DNA of 64,000 nt from Prochlorococcus sp. AG-347-K10 (GTDB lineage: Bacteria; Cyanobacteriota; Cyanobacteriia; PCC-6307; Cyanobiaceae): assembly GCA_003278955.1 (NCBI GenBank), contig QCCB01000003.1, positions 24,379-88,378 of the forward strand. Direction: 5' to 3'. The notes under the pieces were generated by a model, which was not told the DNA's origin, made no database searches, and saw only the letters and a program-made list of their open reading frames with translations. Both the position numbers and the translations under genes were made by a program. Numbering within the stretch: the first letter of the stretch is position 1; every line of letters begins with the position of its first letter. Shown here one piece after another: positions 56,487 to 64,000 of the stretch.

Positions 56487-56535
56487 ACTTTTTACTTGTC
56501 ATAAGGCACTTTAAAGAGTTAAATTCACATTATAT

Positions 56536-56607
<72 letters not shown>

Positions 56608-56625
56608 TTCAATAACTAATTCAGT

Positions 56626-56732: not shown

Positions 56733-57707
56733 TTAATTTAAATTTAAACAATTTAACTTCAAATATAAAGAGACTACTTTTTCTTTTAATCCTGCATTAA
56801 TATTGCCTTTAATATCTTTTTTTGATTCTTTAAATTCAAAATTATAACATTCTTTTATTTTTACAATTTCTTGAATCTGGTACCAGTAATCTTCCGATGA
56901 ACAAAGTTTTTCATAGGATATAAAATGGACGTTTCTCTTGTTTTTTAAAGCTTGAAAAGCATCTCTATAGGTAAGGTACCACTGTTCAATCCAATGATTT
57001 ATTTCTAAATCTTTATGAAAATTTAGATTATGATTATTAATAGGAATATAATTTGGACCAAATTCTGTATGTCCAATCCATTGCATATATTTTGATATAA
57101 ATTTATCGTCTCCAGCATCTTTTATAAATTTTTTATGTTGAGTCAGTAAAGAGTACGCATGCTGTATTGGTTCTCTAAAAGGAATAAGTATCTTTGATTG
57201 AGTAAAAATTGATGAAATGAGTTCAACCCTTTTTATATTTTGATTATTTTTACTAAGATATCTCCCTTTTTTGTACTTATGAATAATATTTCCTATATAA
57301 ATTCTAAACTTATCTTCTAATTCTTCATACTCTTCTTCAGCAAAAGTTTTCCAAAATACTTCCTCAAATGCTTCTGGTGAATCTGTAGACACCTTAATTC
57401 CATCTTTATGTGCTCTTTCCTTAAACTCTAAATTTTTCTTATTAAAGGATATTTTAGACCAAAGGTTAGGAGCTAAGACAAATGGCATATCAGAATAAGA
57501 GAGAGATGCAAAAATATTTGATTTATAAAGTGCATTTAATAGTATTGTTGTCCCTGCGCGTGCAAGTCCTGTTATAAAGATATGGTTTTCAGTTTCACTC
57601 AACGGCGATATATTTTTGCTTTCAAAATCAAAAGTCACTTCTCGCATAAATTGCGATGAAAGTGCAAATTTATGTAACTTTTGTTCCAACCAAGAATAAT
57701 TATTCAT
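56733..57707 (-). CDS. Sulfotransferase family protein
   Basis: HIFITGLARAGTTILLNALYKS PAPS-binding-type loop; ILIPFREPIQHAYSLLTQHKKF. Confidence 0.82.
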   Translation of the reverse strand: MNNYSWLEQKLHKFALSSQFMREVTFDFESKNISPLSETENHIFITGLARAGTTILLNALYKSNIFASLSYSDMPFVLAPNLWSKISFNKKNLEFKERAHKDGIKVSTDSPEAFEEVFWKTFAEEEYEELEDKFRIYIGNIIHKYKKGRYLSKNNQNIKRVELISSIFTQSKILIPFREPIQHAYSLLTQHKKFIKDAGDDKFISKYMQWIGHTEFGPNYIPINNHNLNFHKDLEINHWIEQWYLTYRDAFQALKNKRNVHFISYEKLCSSEDYWYQIQEIVKIKECYNFEFKESKKDIKGNINAGLKEKVVSLYLKLNCLNLN

Positions 57708-58060
57708 CTAAAAATAAGTTTTCTGATGAAGGCATAACTAAATGTAAACAATATAGATTCAATTATCCCCTTTATCGAAAATGTGAACTCAAAGAAACCA
57801 TCTAAAACCTTATCTGCAATAACAAAAATAAAAATAATCAAAATAAATATTAATAACATTTGCAATGAAATGGTCATCATCCGAATGGAATATTTAGGGA
57901 TAATATATTCTTTCCTATGATCACTAATATTTTTATTATAAATGATATTAATTGCTTTCTTGCTAACTTTAACTAGCGAATTGATTAAAGAGATATAATT
58001 AGACTTGATAAATATTTCAGCAGACAAAAAACAAATAAATAAAAGAATCAGATGGTTCAC
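57704..58060 (-). CDS. Small membrane protein (hypothetical)
   Basis: 118 aa with two or more TM segments; start/stop overlap on both sides. Confidence 0.6.
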   Translation of the reverse strand: MNHLILLFICFLSAEIFIKSNYISLINSLVKVSKKAINIIYNKNISDHRKEYIIPKYSIRMMTISLQMLLIFILIIFIFVIADKVLDGFFEFTFSIKGIIESILFTFSYAFIRKLIFR

Positions 58061-58287
58061 TTTCTTTGATTAATATTATTCTTATTTTTAGATAATCTAT
58101 TTTTCTTTTTCTTATTTTTAAATGCTCTTTTGATTGGATAATAAAGAATACCCCATAATCCTAGAAAGAATGCTGCAATGATTCCAAAAATTGCTGCGAT
58201 AACTCCACCTCCCATCCCAGGTCCTATATATGCGAAAAATGGAGATATGTTAACGAGGATTATAGAAATAAAAATAGATTCAGTCAT
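58057..58287 (-). CDS. Small membrane protein with YIGPGMGGG motif
   Basis: 76 aa, FAYIGPGMGGGVIAAIFGIIAAFFLGLWGILYYPIKRAFKNKKKKNR. Confidence 0.65.
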   Translation of the reverse strand: MTESIFISIILVNISPFFAYIGPGMGGGVIAAIFGIIAAFFLGLWGILYYPIKRAFKNKKKKNRLSKNKNNINQRK

Positions 58288-59641
58288 TACATTTGTATTT
58301 TGAATTTAAGAAGTTCTTAACTATTGTAATATCTTGTGCACTATGCAATATTCTTGACCAACCAAGACGATAAACTTTACCATCAGCAGCACGATTATAG
58401 TGTTGCCACCTTAATGTTCCATCAGAGTTAAAATAAATTGTTCTAGCACGATTAGATTCTTCTAAAAACAGATCTCCATTAGATAAAATTTCACTTCTAC
58501 CTTCTGTATGAGTTGAAATGTTGTTATCTATTAAAGAATTTTTCAAATAAGAAGAAAATTCTTTAGTTTTAAAATTATAAATATTAACTTCATTGTTACC
58601 ATCAATTTTAATACCCTTGTAAGTTCTAAGCATTTTATTGTTAAAAACAGCTATTCTATTTTTATCCAATATGTCAACATCATGTTGACTCAAAAAAGGA
58701 CCATTTATTGTTTTAATTATTTTGTTAGTAGATGGTCGATAAAGAATAATTAAAGATAAATCTCTAAGAGATAAGAAAACATCGCCTTTTTTCCAAAACG
58801 GTCCATCAAAATCAACTGGTTGTATATCATTCAAATGAATAGGATCATTTTTTTGTTTTCCTTGACCAAATAACAGATATCTAAATCCATTATCAATCAA
58901 TATTTGAGAAACTGATTTTTGAAATAATATTGTTCCATTTGGTGATAATTTAACAATACCATCATCTCTATATCCGCCATCTTGAGGGATAACTCTTTTT
59001 ACTAAATCTCCAGGAATTGATTGAGGATAAATATGGTTAGGTGCCCATAAATTTCCATCAATATCTTTTTCTATAGAATGATGGAACAGGTCACTTGTGT
59101 TTTGAAATAATAAATTAGAGCAAGAATCAATCTTACGAATTGGTGCGTCCTGATCCAGAAATACCAAACCCCTATCATTTAGTAAAATAGGATGACTTAA
59201 CAAACTACGAGAATTATTTTTATCTCTATTCAAATATTTAAACTCATCAACTTTTTGAATCTGATTATTAAATCTATTTAGGTTTGGATTCCATTTATGT
59301 AAAACCTGAAATGTTGTTAAGTCTACAAGTTCAACTACAGCTGTTTTTAGATTCCCATCATATCTAGATAGTAAAAGATAGGATTCTTTATTATTTGGAG
59401 TGCCATTAAATCCATTTAAAGTAGGATAAAAATCACCAATTAAAAGATTATTTTTAAACATAATTTTTATATTTTTTGGTATTTCTGCTAAAAATAATGC
59501 TGTCTGTGAAAGTTTTCCTCCTTTTACTGTTCCTACTAATTCTTGTCTTACTAATATTCCAAAAATAGTAGTTAAAGGGAAAAACAATATTATTACTAAA
59601 TAAAGTATCCAAATTTCAATTTTCTTAAACATTAACTTCAT
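58280..59641 (-). CDS. Arylsulfotransferase (ASST)-like protein
   Basis: 453 aa, N-terminal TM anchor; DGNLWAPNHIYPQSIPGD, SQHDVDILDKNRIAVFNNK, SNRARTIYFNSDGTLRWQHYNRAADGKVYRLGWSRIL. Confidence 0.65.
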   Translation of the reverse strand: MKLMFKKIEIWILYLVIILFFPLTTIFGILVRQELVGTVKGGKLSQTALFLAEIPKNIKIMFKNNLLIGDFYPTLNGFNGTPNNKESYLLLSRYDGNLKTAVVELVDLTTFQVLHKWNPNLNRFNNQIQKVDEFKYLNRDKNNSRSLLSHPILLNDRGLVFLDQDAPIRKIDSCSNLLFQNTSDLFHHSIEKDIDGNLWAPNHIYPQSIPGDLVKRVIPQDGGYRDDGIVKLSPNGTILFQKSVSQILIDNGFRYLLFGQGKQKNDPIHLNDIQPVDFDGPFWKKGDVFLSLRDLSLIILYRPSTNKIIKTINGPFLSQHDVDILDKNRIAVFNNKMLRTYKGIKIDGNNEVNIYNFKTKEFSSYLKNSLIDNNISTHTEGRSEILSNGDLFLEESNRARTIYFNSDGTLRWQHYNRAADGKVYRLGWSRILHSAQDITIVKNFLNSKYKCND

Positions 59642-59706
59642 CGAATACTAAAAAAAATTATAAATTTTAAAGTTTATTTGTATTTTTTTTTAAATTAAGT
59701 TTGAAA

Positions 59707-59835
59707 TCAATAGAAATAATTTTTATTTTTTTTCACAATCGTAATCGCTAGTTTCAAGCCGACATAACCTAAACCTAAAATTGCAACCTTACAGCTTTCT
59801 ATTTTGGGTAAATCATTATCATTGTTAATAGCCAT
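59707..59835 (-). pseudogene. Truncated N-terminal fragment of a UDP-sugar dehydrogenase (TviB/WecC-like)
   Basis: Read by hand: 42 aa MAINNDNDLPKIESCKVAILGLGYVGLKLAITIVKKNKNYFY; GLGYVGL Rossmann start then stop. Confidence 0.7.
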
Positions 59836-60850
59836 AATATTCTTTATACCAATCAATAAATTTTTTAATACCAGTTTCTATGGAAACAAAAGATTTTGGA
59901 CCAATGATTTCCTCAAGCAAATGAGTATCAGCTTTTGTATTGGGTACATCCCCTTTATGCATTTTTAGATATTTCTTTTTTGCTTTTTTACCAAGATTTT
60001 GCTCAATTAAATTAATTAGATCAGACAAAACATAAGACTTTGAATTGCCAATATTTAAAATTCTGAAAGGAGCCCAACTAGAAGAAGGGTCAATTTGAGC
60101 TCTATCGTATTTTTTGTTATGACACGGTATATCTTCTAAAATACTTTTTACTCCCTCTACTATGTCATCAATATATGTAAAAGATCTACTCATATTACCA
60201 TTATTGAAAATCTCAATTTCTGAGTTATTGATAATTGCTTTTGTAAATAAATAAATAGCCATATCTGGCCTTCCCCAAGGTCCATATACTGTGAAAAATC
60301 TTAAGCCAGTTGTAGGTAATCCATAAAGATGACTATATGAATGTGCTAACAATTCATTAGATCGTTTTGTAACGGCATATAAATTTAGAGGATGATCAAC
60401 ATTTTCGGTCTCTTTGAAAAGTTTACTTGTATTACCTCCGTACACAGAACTACTGCTTGCATAAATAAAGTTTTTCGTATTAAATTCTTTTGCATTATCA
60501 ATAATGTTAAAAAATCCAGTAAAATTAGTTTCAACATATTCATCAGGATTTTCAATAGAGTATCTAACTCCTGCTTGTGCTGCAAGATTTATTACTATTT
60601 CCGGCCTATACTTAGAAAATAGATTTTTTATTAAATTCTTATCTTTTATATCACCATTTATTATAGTAAAATCCAGCGAATTTTCTTTAGTTAATTTTTC
60701 AATTAATTCAATTCTACTTTTTTTTAAATTTGTATCATAATAATCTGAAAAATTATCGATACCAATAACTGAATACCCCTCTAAAACAAGTTCTTTAGAT
60801 AAATGAAAACCTATAAAGCCAGCTGCACCTGTAATAAGAATATTTTTCAT
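59825..60850 (-). CDS. NAD-dependent epimerase (UDP-glucuronate/UDP-glucose 4-epimerase type)
   Basis: ILITGAAGFIGFHLSKELVLEGYSVIGIDNFSDYYD, YASSSSVYGGN, LYAVTKRSNELLAHSYSHLYGLPTTGLRFFTVYGPWGRPDMA. Confidence 0.92.
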   Translation of the reverse strand: MKNILITGAAGFIGFHLSKELVLEGYSVIGIDNFSDYYDTNLKKSRIELIEKLTKENSLDFTIINGDIKDKNLIKNLFSKYRPEIVINLAAQAGVRYSIENPDEYVETNFTGFFNIIDNAKEFNTKNFIYASSSSVYGGNTSKLFKETENVDHPLNLYAVTKRSNELLAHSYSHLYGLPTTGLRFFTVYGPWGRPDMAIYLFTKAIINNSEIEIFNNGNMSRSFTYIDDIVEGVKSILEDIPCHNKKYDRAQIDPSSSWAPFRILNIGNSKSYVLSDLINLIEQNLGKKAKKKYLKMHKGDVPNTKADTHLLEEIIGPKSFVSIETGIKKFIDWYKEYYGY

Positions 60851-60965: not shown

Positions 60966-62828
60966 TCATATTTTTCTAAAGTGAATTAAATTAGCAGAAA
61001 TTTCACTAACTAAAATAAAACTCTTTTCAATTATTAAATCTTGGAGCATAGATTTACTTAAAATATCATCTCTATTAATTCCAAACCTAGAAATCATTAT
61101 TATGATATCAGTATAATTTTCGAATTCATTTAAGATTGATTCCTGCAAATTTTTAGTTGCAGTCGAGATTACATTTGTCGAGATCAAGAAGTTTCTTGTA
61201 CTTGAAAGCTTAGCTTTTTGAAGAGGAAATAGTCCATGATATAAGGTTAATTTTAAATCTTTATTAAAAACAACCTTGCAATGTTTAGCTAAAAATGAAA
61301 AATATTCAAAATTTGTTTTATTATTTTCAACTGAGTAGACCTCAAACTTAAATAAGGATAAGAGTAAAGATAATGATCCTAAACCCGGACCAATTTCTGT
61401 TATGGAAACTGAATTTAATTTGGGAATAGATAATAAATACTTTAAAATATCAATATCATATTTGGAAAAAAAAACGTTATTATTAATTCTTTTTTTGAAA
61501 TAATTAGTTAGTTTTTCTATTTTTAATTGTTTTGTCTTAAAAAATAAGTCAATAATATACTGATTATATAAATCTAGATCTTCAATTATTGGTGAATTAT
61601 TATATCTACTCAGTAGTTTCTTCTTACTTATTTTTGATGGTTTTATTTGAGATTTGATATTGATATTTTGCTCAATATTATATTTTTTAAATAACTGAAA
61701 ATTATCATCTATAAATTCTAATTTTGTAAGATAAGTTTCTAAGTTTTTATCAATTTTATATAAATCTCTAATAACTTCATTCACTGTTTTATATTCAAGT
61801 TCAATTGCATTCTTTATACAAAATTCTTGAAGAATATTGTGAAGTTCAATTACTTTATTATGCTCATGAGGAAAACACTCATAATATTGTTGATCAAATG
61901 AATGCGAATGTGTTTTTATGAATAAAATATTATTCAATTTATAACCTTTTTGTAACCATCTTTTGATCCTTGTTTTAGGGTAAAAAAAAGTAAAATCTTT
62001 TATTTTGCTTCTATAATCCAAAGAGCAATCTGCATAAGACAAAGCTTGATTCCATATTAGAAATCTTCTCCTATCTTTAATTTTAGGAATTCTATTTATT
62101 TTTGTTGGATCTGAATTAATAGAGTCATATGATCTTTCTTTCCTAATTGGAATGATTGTAAAAGGTTCCTTTAATTCAGGGTCACATTTATATCGGCCAG
62201 CAGGAAAGGTAAAATCCCCGATTATATTATTCTGCATCAATATGGATATTTCATCTTCGATATTGCAGACAGATTTATCACTAGCATTTAAAGCCCAACA
62301 ACCATGAATAAAACAATAATTATTTATTTTTTGTTCAATTTCTAAATCGAGTCTTTTTCGTAAAATCTTTAAAAATAGTTTTAATCTTTTAGAATCATTT
62401 TTTGATTTTGGAAACTTATAATAACTACTATTTGTAAAATGTTCATGATGAATATGTAGGTGGAATTCATGCAAAGTATCCTTACTTAGCAAATTCATGA
62501 CAGGTTTTATTAGAGCTAAATCAAAATTTGTATAATATTCATTTGAAAAGAAAAATTCTTCTCCATCTACTTTATATCTATTTTCTTTTAAATTTATAGG
62601 TTTATTTGAATAATTTATTGGGATTTTATAAAATAATGATAGATTTTTTGAATGATCATATTTGCTAGTTGAGGTTTTAAATTTTTTCAATAAATTTAAT
62701 GTGTAATTTAAAGAATCTGAATCAGATCCTTTCCATGGCTCAAAATGATCAGTATGAAAAACTACGATTTTAGAGATATCTCTTTCTTTGATAATGTCTT
62801 TTAAATCTGAAAAATATGGATTAATCAT
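60966..62828 (-). CDS. Unusual two-part protein: His/Asp-rich deacetylase-like N-terminus and SAM-methyltransferase-like C-terminus
   Basis: 620 aa; VVFHTDHFEPW, EFHLHIHHEHF, FIHGCWALN, FPAGRYKCD, KTHSHSFDQ; C-terminal ITEIGPGLGSLSLLLSLFKFEVYSVENN. Confidence 0.5.
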   Translation of the reverse strand: MINPYFSDLKDIIKERDISKIVVFHTDHFEPWKGSDSDSLNYTLNLLKKFKTSTSKYDHSKNLSLFYKIPINYSNKPINLKENRYKVDGEEFFFSNEYYTNFDLALIKPVMNLLSKDTLHEFHLHIHHEHFTNSSYYKFPKSKNDSKRLKLFLKILRKRLDLEIEQKINNYCFIHGCWALNASDKSVCNIEDEISILMQNNIIGDFTFPAGRYKCDPELKEPFTIIPIRKERSYDSINSDPTKINRIPKIKDRRRFLIWNQALSYADCSLDYRSKIKDFTFFYPKTRIKRWLQKGYKLNNILFIKTHSHSFDQQYYECFPHEHNKVIELHNILQEFCIKNAIELEYKTVNEVIRDLYKIDKNLETYLTKLEFIDDNFQLFKKYNIEQNINIKSQIKPSKISKKKLLSRYNNSPIIEDLDLYNQYIIDLFFKTKQLKIEKLTNYFKKRINNNVFFSKYDIDILKYLLSIPKLNSVSITEIGPGLGSLSLLLSLFKFEVYSVENNKTNFEYFSFLAKHCKVVFNKDLKLTLYHGLFPLQKAKLSSTRNFLISTNVISTATKNLQESILNEFENYTDIIIMISRFGINRDDILSKSMLQDLIIEKSFILVSEISANLIHFRKI

Positions 62829-63047: not shown

Positions 63048-64000
63048 ATGAAAAAAATATTTATTCACTTGAGGAGTGGTATAACAGACGCACTTGATAG
63101 GTTTAATCAAGCTAGTATTTTGTATTTAGATAAAAATTTCATAATTGGTATTTATGTTTCAAATGTATTCTTAGATAGAAATAGCATAAGCAAAGATTAT
63201 TTTAATAAGTTATTTTGTATTGAAAAAAATCTAGTAATCTTCGAAGATGAATTGGATGAAGAAAATAAATTATATTTTGAAATTAATACATTAGAAGATC
63301 TTAAACAAAGTTACTCTATTGAAGAGTCTGAAAAGAAAATAATTATTTTATTTAAACGTAATAACATTTTATTTAAACGTGATAAATTGATACCTCATCA
63401 ATGGGCAGATGTAAATCATAATTATTCTAGCTATACCAAAAATATTCTTAAAAACTCCTTTTTTAAAAAAAATATCAACCTAAAAACAAGAAACAATAAA
63501 AAAGTGTTATTTTTACAATATCGACTAGGTGATATCACTTTAATACCTTGTAATTTGTTAATAAATCTATTTAATATTGAAGAAAAATATCGAAATTATT
63601 TTCTTGGTTCAAGGTTTAAACCTATTTATAAAGATTATTTATTAACTTCAATTGATGATAAAAATTTAGATTTTGATGTTAAAAGGTTATTGAGAGCTTC
63701 TATTAATAAATTTGTTCCTCCTTCTACATATATAAAATTTTTAGACAATAACATTAGTAATTATGATCGAATAATACTCTCCTCAGATGGATTAAGACTT
63801 GCAAGTAAACAAGTAAAAAATACTTTTAATCTTAAGGAATCTATTGATTATATTGAAAATCAACTTCAAAATTATTTCTTAGGATATTTAAAAAAAAGAT
63901 GCTCTAAATCCATTATAGGAGAATCACAGAATTCAATTTTACCTTCTATTAAAGCTTGCGCAAAATCTTCTTATTGGCAAATGGGAGGTGGTAATTTTCC
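63048..64000 (+). CDS. Hypothetical protein, 3' truncated by window edge (possible polysaccharide-related)
   Basis: Read by hand: MKKIFIHLRSGITDALDRFNQASILYLDKNFIIGIYVSN...KKVLFLQYRLGDITLIPCN...SYWQMGGGNF, open to window end. Confidence 0.65.
   Translation, partial: MKKIFIHLRSGITDALDRFNQASILYLDKNFIIGIYVSNVFLDRNSISKDYFNKLFCIEKNLVIFEDELDEENKLYFEINTLEDLKQSYSIEESEKKIIILFKRNNILFKRDKLIPHQWADVNHNYSSYTKNILKNSFFKKNINLKTRNNKKVLFLQYRLGDITLIPCNLLINLFNIEEKYRNYFLGSRFKPIYKDYLLTSIDDKNLDFDVKRLLRASINKFVPPSTYIKFLDNNISNYDRIILSSDGLRLASKQVKNTFNLKESIDYIENQLQNYFLGYLKKRCSKSIIGESQNSILPSIKACAKSSYWQMGGGNF
63345..63386 (+). repeat. Tandem 21-bp duplication inside terminal ORF (ILFKRNN/ILFKRDK)
   Basis: attttatttaaacgtaataac followed directly by attttatttaaacgtgataaa, in frame. 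Confidence 0.8.

Follow-up and report, generated by a model that had tools for sequence, protein, structure and literature searches.

Within the window, a stretch of 64,000 nucleotides of Prochlorococcus DNA, four genes lie head to tail on the minus strand between positions 56733 and 59641. An earlier note on this DNA had described them as co-oriented, with overlaps of 4-8 nt, and as probably translationally coupled. We confirmed all four reading frames, their coordinates and strand, and overlaps of 8 nt (58280-58287), 4 nt (58057-58060) and 4 nt (57704-57707), so that probable translational coupling holds up. In the order of transcription, the genes encode a candidate arylsulfate sulfotransferase (ASST), a small membrane protein with a YIGPG motif, a 118-aa membrane protein and a candidate PAPS-type sulfotransferase (ST). 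The window is part of a 1.3-Mb draft genome, and its end coincides with the end of the contig. The cassette is flanked by a nucleotide-sugar epimerase gene and, at its 3' end, by a tRNA-Asn (56535-56608, plus strand), where the G+C content begins a fall that runs across the stretch; the tRNA is a possible island edge.

Other features of the neighbourhood deserve a mention. A cut-down reading frame at 59690-59850, beginning MAINNDNDLPKIESCKVAILGLGYVGLKLA..., is likely the remnant of a nucleotide-sugar dehydrogenase gene, a seemingly intact version of which lies close by in a related cassette locus (L002). The 620-aa protein encoded at 60966-62828 had no match in a Pfam search; its C-terminal part weakly resembled an rRNA dimethyltransferase profile (E 0.013), and it might be an envelope-glycan enzyme. 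Finally, an open frame of at least 317 aa (63048-63998) runs into the contig end, and it also went without a Pfam match.

The four gene products

The first gene (58280-59641; this and all other cassette positions are on the minus strand) encodes a protein of 453 aa that matched the Pfam family Arylsulfotran_2 (PF14269, E 3e-43, 148.7 bits for a cut-off of 27). The cassette ASST of another genome (G125) also scored above the cut-off of PF05935. An AF2 model based on 47 sequences (mean pLDDT 93.5) showed an N-terminal TM helix, residues 10-36, followed by a beta-propeller. When the model was compared with the PDB by Foldseek, the best matches were Cpz4 (9kf4, E 2.6e-10) and EcAST (3ets, E 4e-10), a distant likeness with a TM-score of about 0.5 and 10-12% identity. 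Alignment to EcAST by MAFFT brought five of six active-site residues into register: His187 (59081-59083) with His252, His269 and Asn271 (58829-58837) with His356 and Asn358, Arg293 (58763-58765) with Arg374, and His320 (58682-58684), the putative catalytic residue, with His436. This last correspondence was also found in a weak hhalign match. His269, Asn271 and His320 did not vary among the 47 cassette ASSTs and were shared by almost all of 15 divergent relatives, while His187 and Arg293 were each conserved in 44/47. EcAST Thr501 fell on Glu380 of the window ASST, not on a Thr, and a near-invariant Thr377 lies nearby. In EcAST, transient sulfation takes place on His436 (PMC13426309). Altogether, the profile, the modelled fold and the aligned residues support the identification of gene 1 as an ASST of beta-propeller fold, with enzyme activity predicted, in line with the membrane-anchored propeller proposed in the earlier note.

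On which side of the membrane does the propeller lie? The window ASST has two cysteines only, Cys174 (59120-59122) and, towards the C-terminus, Cys451 (58289-58291). Both were present in 41 of the 47 ASSTs, both were missing from six, and in no case was one found alone. Since the six include one from a Pelagibacter and two others besides a group from Bacteroidota, the pair was lost jointly on more than one occasion. From this paired presence and absence we infer a Cys174-Cys451 disulfide and hence a location outside the cytoplasm. The positive-inside rule was rejected as a guide, as the charges around the TM helix were ambiguous (1.8 K/R before, 2.3 after), and the assignment therefore depends on the paired cysteines and on the homology to EcAST, which is periplasmic.

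Gene 4 (56733-57707, 324 aa) matched Sulfotransfer_3 (PF13469, E 4e-10, 40.9 bits for a cut-off of 27), and the best solved relatives of its profile were the tyrosylprotein sulfotransferases TPST1/2 (E 3e-7). Both PAPS-binding motifs could be predicted. R50 and G52 of the 5'-phosphosulfate-binding motif, GLARAGTT (57546-57569), were invariant in 43/43 sequences, as were R178 and S186 of the 3'-phosphate-binding motif (57150-57176), which aligned with the R...S of TPST1. Judging from its sequence, gene 4 is well supported as a PAPS-type sulfotransferase, with PAPS binding predicted and the enzyme predicted to face the cytoplasm. An APS kinase is encoded in the window's own genome, and in Bacteroidota APS kinase genes were found near the cassette. 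The earlier note's reading turned on a sulfotransferase and an ASST fold, and these are now backed by the sequence profile and by the predicted fold, respectively.

The two small membrane proteins, also anticipated by the earlier note, had no family match above the cut-off among the curated families of Pfam. The N-terminus of the gene 2 product (58057-58287, 76 aa) resembles a signal peptide; the protein has a single TM helix, and its C-terminus is basic. In its Y-I-G-P-G motif (58216-58230), Y20, G22, P23 and G24 were invariant in 39 family members. The motif region is uncharged, seven K/R follow the TM helix, and 37/39 members have small residues at the -3/-1 sites ahead of the Tyr; the charge pattern and the small residues together lead us to predict that the motif lies outside. 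Similar AY-x-[GD]-PG membrane segments were noticed elsewhere: at the N-terminus of a phosphodiesterase-family protein (L128:3-1737), at that of proteins like CDP-glycerol transferases (L129:385-1740, by Pfam; L132:373-1671, by similarity), and standing alone. AY-x-[GD]-PG is possibly a general, seemingly unnamed membrane-anchor motif of envelope enzymes. Because such segments occur in unrelated enzymes, we take the YIGPG protein as an anchor or scaffold rather than as a sulfate carrier.

Gene 3 (57704-58060) encodes the 118-aa protein, whose AF2 model (pLDDT 96.4) has helices at residues 2-19, 22-41, 47-85 and 96-117. The protein has three TM helices, and its basic helical hairpin is predicted to be cytoplasmic. 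In its family, residues 20-62 carry 8 K/R on average and the C-terminus 2.7 K/R in 7 residues. Given these basic stretches, both regions are predicted to be cytoplasmic, which would put the ST on that side as well. The topology had prompted us to consider an Oxa1/EMC3-like insertase, but the fold search lent no support, with nothing in the PDB at E <= 0.001 and MsbA as the best match (E 0.7).

Conservation, variants and spread of the cassette

The earlier note had left it to other genomes to tell whether the gene order was peculiar to this one. We scanned a sequence collection with an ASST profile, took the best 80 of 300 relatives, and ran profiles built from 27-28 seed loci over all ORFs of the sampled loci. 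In this sample, 59 loci had both enzymes, and 48 of them displayed exactly the same consecutive and co-directed order, ASST > YIGPG > 118 aa > ST; in the others, mostly, one gene was inverted, moved or undetected. The cassette is therefore not unique to the window genome. It occurs in at least four phyla, Cyanobacteriota, Pseudomonadota, Bacteroidota and Nitrospinota, and an identical order in so many loci rules out chance linkage. We then looked at co-diversification in 58 loci (57 sampled loci and the window), all of which had the YIGPG gene and 51 of which had a detectable 118-aa gene. Pairwise distances were correlated (Mantel r 0.84 for ASST-ST, 0.79 for YIGPG-ST and 0.57-0.69 for the other pairs), and none of 2000 permutations reached the observed values.

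As the sampled loci had been picked through the ASST, extra searches were made from the other genes in evenly drawn genomes. Among 289 genomes of Alphaproteobacteria, the ST was found in 11, YIGPG (threshold E<1e-4) in 13 and both in 10. The ASST was found in 14 of these genomes, with the ST alongside in 9/14, leaving 5/14 that have ASST homologues without the ST. Among 185 genomes of Gammaproteobacteria, the ST was found in eight, YIGPG in nine and both in seven; the eighth ST sits at a contig end. Fisher tests of ST/YIGPG co-occurrence gave 3e-15 in the first class and 2e-10 in the second, values that, like another of 3e-12, overstate independence because related genomes share ancestry. Even with this caveat, the co-occurrence pattern recurs in distant classes. 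Thus, that the four genes form a real conserved unit is, in our judgement, close to certain.

Variants of the cassette were also encountered. In six loci (L032, L049, L053, L062, L069 and L087) the 118-aa protein and the ST form a single ORF, L049 being from Actibacterium, and L117 has another fused form, of 488 aa. In the divergent cassettes of L110-L112 and L118, a YIGPG gene and a divergent ST enclose the gene of a different membrane protein, of ~240 aa, in the third place; of these loci, L110-L112 also have the ASST. The plan of the cassette thus outlives the swap of one of its parts. The ~240-aa protein (L104:2505-3230, L111:4499-5221, L112:4780-5502 and L118:869-1633) has a conserved HKRxxWNxxxGNPxGYLP-like stretch; a Pfam search gave no match, and DUF106, considered as its identity, was rejected on that ground. 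In Mariprofundus the ASST of the sampled locus is apparently alone, yet a complete cassette lies elsewhere in the genome (L097). In a Prochlorococcus relative (L005:868-3805), the ASST and the ST have both diverged; a small protein with YGGPG is encoded on the other strand, and the 118-aa gene is lacking. Finally, in four loci of proteobacterial MAGs, mostly Alphaproteobacteria (L036, L037, L043 and L044), ASST genes come in tandem pairs and the sampled stretch contains no ST; this is a distinct setting for the enzyme family.

The nearest relatives of the window cassette by sequence are from Prochlorococcus. In a tree of concatenated ASST and ST, the cyanobacterial cassettes formed one clade, nested in a clade with SAR86, SAR116, SUP05 and other Proteobacteria (SH-aLRT 99 for each, in a quick tree computed without bootstrap). 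Close matches were found in 4 of 119 genomes, the window's own included. This patchy presence, together with the nested position, fits transfer among ocean bacteria. Viral contigs contained no relatives, and we rejected spread by phages or other viruses on this basis. The cassette is found in the most abundant groups of open-ocean bacteria (Prochlorococcus, SAR11, SAR86, SAR116) and also in bacteria with larger genomes, such as Sphingomonas, Acetobacter and Mucilaginibacter. Culturable carriers include P. marinus MIT 9314, Synechococcus UW105, Sphingomonas leidyi and Komagataeibacter europaeus.

The genomic setting was less uniform. The cassette of several Prochlorococcus has alanine racemase/prfA on one side and cobalamin genes on the other, and glycan genes do not adjoin it; one of these is the cultured MIT 9314, where the flanks are alr/prfA and cbiG. 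Among the 25 commonest neighbour families in each of two samples, there was no consistent family pointing to an acceptor, and neither a type III PKS nor any other gene for making a carrier was seen. The neighbours being so diverse, the acceptor is not readable from context. The earlier note had suggested a module for the sulfation or export of a surface glycan or small molecule in a streamlined cyanobacterium. In so specific a form this is not supported, given the Prochlorococcus copies without adjoining glycan genes and the larger-genome hosts; a surface glycan is nevertheless a possible acceptor.

A possible sulfuryl relay and its alternatives

PAPS is made inside the cell, in the cytoplasm, and ASSTs use aryl sulfates instead of PAPS. 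How bacteria might sulfate molecules beyond the cytoplasm is a largely open question, and for most bacterial ASSTs the natural donors and roles are unknown (PMC13426309). With an apparently outward-facing ASST nearly always paired with an apparently inward-facing PAPS enzyme, the simplest account is a relay by way of an aryl sulfate. We thus propose, with about an even chance of being right, that the cassette is a two-step, membrane-crossing sulfation unit, in which sulfuryl groups would pass from the ST to an aryl-sulfate carrier, then to the ASST and eventually to an acceptor in the envelope. The ST, tethered by the three-helix protein of gene 3, would use PAPS to sulfate a phenolic or quinol-like carrier at the cytoplasmic face of the inner membrane. 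The charged carrier would cross the membrane or turn over in it. On the outer side, the membrane-anchored propeller would take the sulfuryl group onto His320 and hand it to the acceptor, leaving the spent carrier open to recharging. The YIGPG protein might act as a membrane scaffold joining the two enzymes, or provide the carrier path. In this scheme, the membrane sides, the feeding of one enzyme by the other, the carrier (for example a quinol sulfate), the acceptor and the part played by gene 2 are what we infer; the support that we observed comprises the linkage of four genes in many lineages, their co-diversification, the fusions of genes 3 and 4, the ASST fold and active-site residues, the PAPS motifs and the paired cysteines. 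Counted against the relay were the lack of any carrier-making gene seen with the cassette, the distant likeness of the ASST fold, the mismatch at Thr501, the ambiguous TM charges and the ASSTs without an ST in 5/14 genomes.

A different possibility was that the two enzymes modify one envelope product independently of each other. In the cytoplasm, the ST would sulfate a precursor, either a glycan or a lipid, while outside the ASST would add or remove further sulfate with environmental aryl sulfates, so that their linkage would reflect the shared product alone. Indeed, some cassettes adjoin genes for epimerases, glycosyltransferases, an O-antigen ligase or polysaccharide export, the window copy has its nucleotide-sugar epimerase, and aryl sulfates suit EcAST as donors (PMC13426309). 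Many cassettes, however, stand alone amid housekeeping genes (as in L022, between alr/prfA and cbiG), and the near-obligate linkage of both enzymes and YIGPG across distant phyla suggests mutual dependence. Free aryl sulfates would also seem to be scarce in the open ocean, and on the whole we regard this explanation as unlikely. In a reverse system, the cassette would serve at the cell surface to scavenge or detoxify phenols or aryl sulfates, in keeping with the ability of EcAST to shuttle sulfuryl groups between small phenols (PMC13426309). We consider this very improbable, as a linked PAPS-dependent ST with invariant motifs and adjacent APS kinase genes point to the spending of activated sulfate.

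Two further explanations concern the enzymes themselves. The low identity to proven ASSTs (10-12%) could mean that gene 1 encodes a non-catalytic propeller scaffold and that the ST acts alone. Yet a scaffold would have no need of His269, Asn271 and His320, kept in 47/47 ASSTs and in nearly all of the 15 divergent relatives, or of His187 and Arg293, kept in 44/47, and there is accordingly little to recommend this view. It is also conceivable that the ST charges a protein tyrosine, for instance the invariant Tyr of YIGPG, and that tyrosine-O-sulfate is the ASST donor, given that the closest solved structures to the ST are tyrosylprotein sulfotransferases and that ASSTs handle tyrosine-containing peptides (PMC13426309). 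That Tyr would, however, be on the outer side, away from PAPS, and the AY-x-[GD]-PG segments in unrelated contexts (L128, L129, L132, or alone) show that such a Tyr need not be a sulfate site, which weakens its candidacy as carrier and makes this the slimmest of the chances weighed here.

Extending the relay reading, one may imagine a general cycle of sulfate carriage in the envelope, in which a recyclable, membrane-soluble aryl sulfate such as a quinol sulfate ferries sulfuryl groups from PAPS over the inner membrane, a dedicated periplasmic ASST spends it, and the unit moves between phyla. The role of the carrier would then resemble that of undecaprenyl phosphate for sugars. We put this forward tentatively, as a generalization with clearly less than even prospects. 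An ASST that is nearly always accompanied by a PAPS enzyme of its own and by two membrane proteins offers a concrete and testable answer to the question of extracytoplasmic sulfation and, if the answer is true, hints at unseen sulfated envelope chemistry in the open ocean.

Comparison with known systems

The earlier note could name no described system of such composition, and a literature search conducted largely outside subscription journals likewise found no description of the cassette, though an earlier mention is possible.

Among sulfating systems of cyanobacteria, the xss/synechan system of Synechocystis (PMC8205485) acts on an envelope product, as we propose for the cassette, but it has two sulfotransferases inside a Wzx/Wzy polysaccharide cluster, and the term 'arylsulf' is absent from the paper describing it. 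The cassette ST shares its 5'-phosphosulfate- and 3'-phosphate-binding motifs with the tyrosylprotein sulfotransferases and Sulfotransfer_3 enzymes; it differs in being bacterial, predicted to be membrane-bound through gene 3, and paired with an ASST. E. coli AssT (EcAST, PDB 3ELQ/3ETS) has the beta-propeller and the residues His252, His356, Asn358, Arg374 and His436 in common with the window ASST. It is periplasmic and encoded in an operon with a dedicated Dsb pair, DsbL/DsbI, to be compared with the paired cysteines of the cassette ASST. Unlike the latter, EcAST has an extra N-terminal beta-sandwich domain and no linked PAPS-dependent ST, and it receives its donors from outside.

The sole two-step precedent that our search found is caprazamycin biosynthesis in Streptomyces, wherein the PAPS-dependent ST Cpz8 makes a phenolic sulfate that the ASST Cpz4 then uses (PMC4257720). 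There as here, the two enzymes are genetically linked, they act in series as we propose for the cassette, and Cpz4 structures (9kf4/9kf6) are the best fold matches of the window ASST. The caprazamycin system has a type III PKS pyrone carrier and an antibiotic acceptor, whereas no PKS was seen among the commonest neighbour families of the cassette, and no antibiotic cluster goes with it. Since no carrier-making gene was seen alongside it, we do not class the cassette as caprazamycin-type but only as one proposed to work like it. In contrast to Cpz8 and Cpz4, both of its enzymes are predicted to be tied to the membrane through small proteins, and its range extends over four phyla or more.
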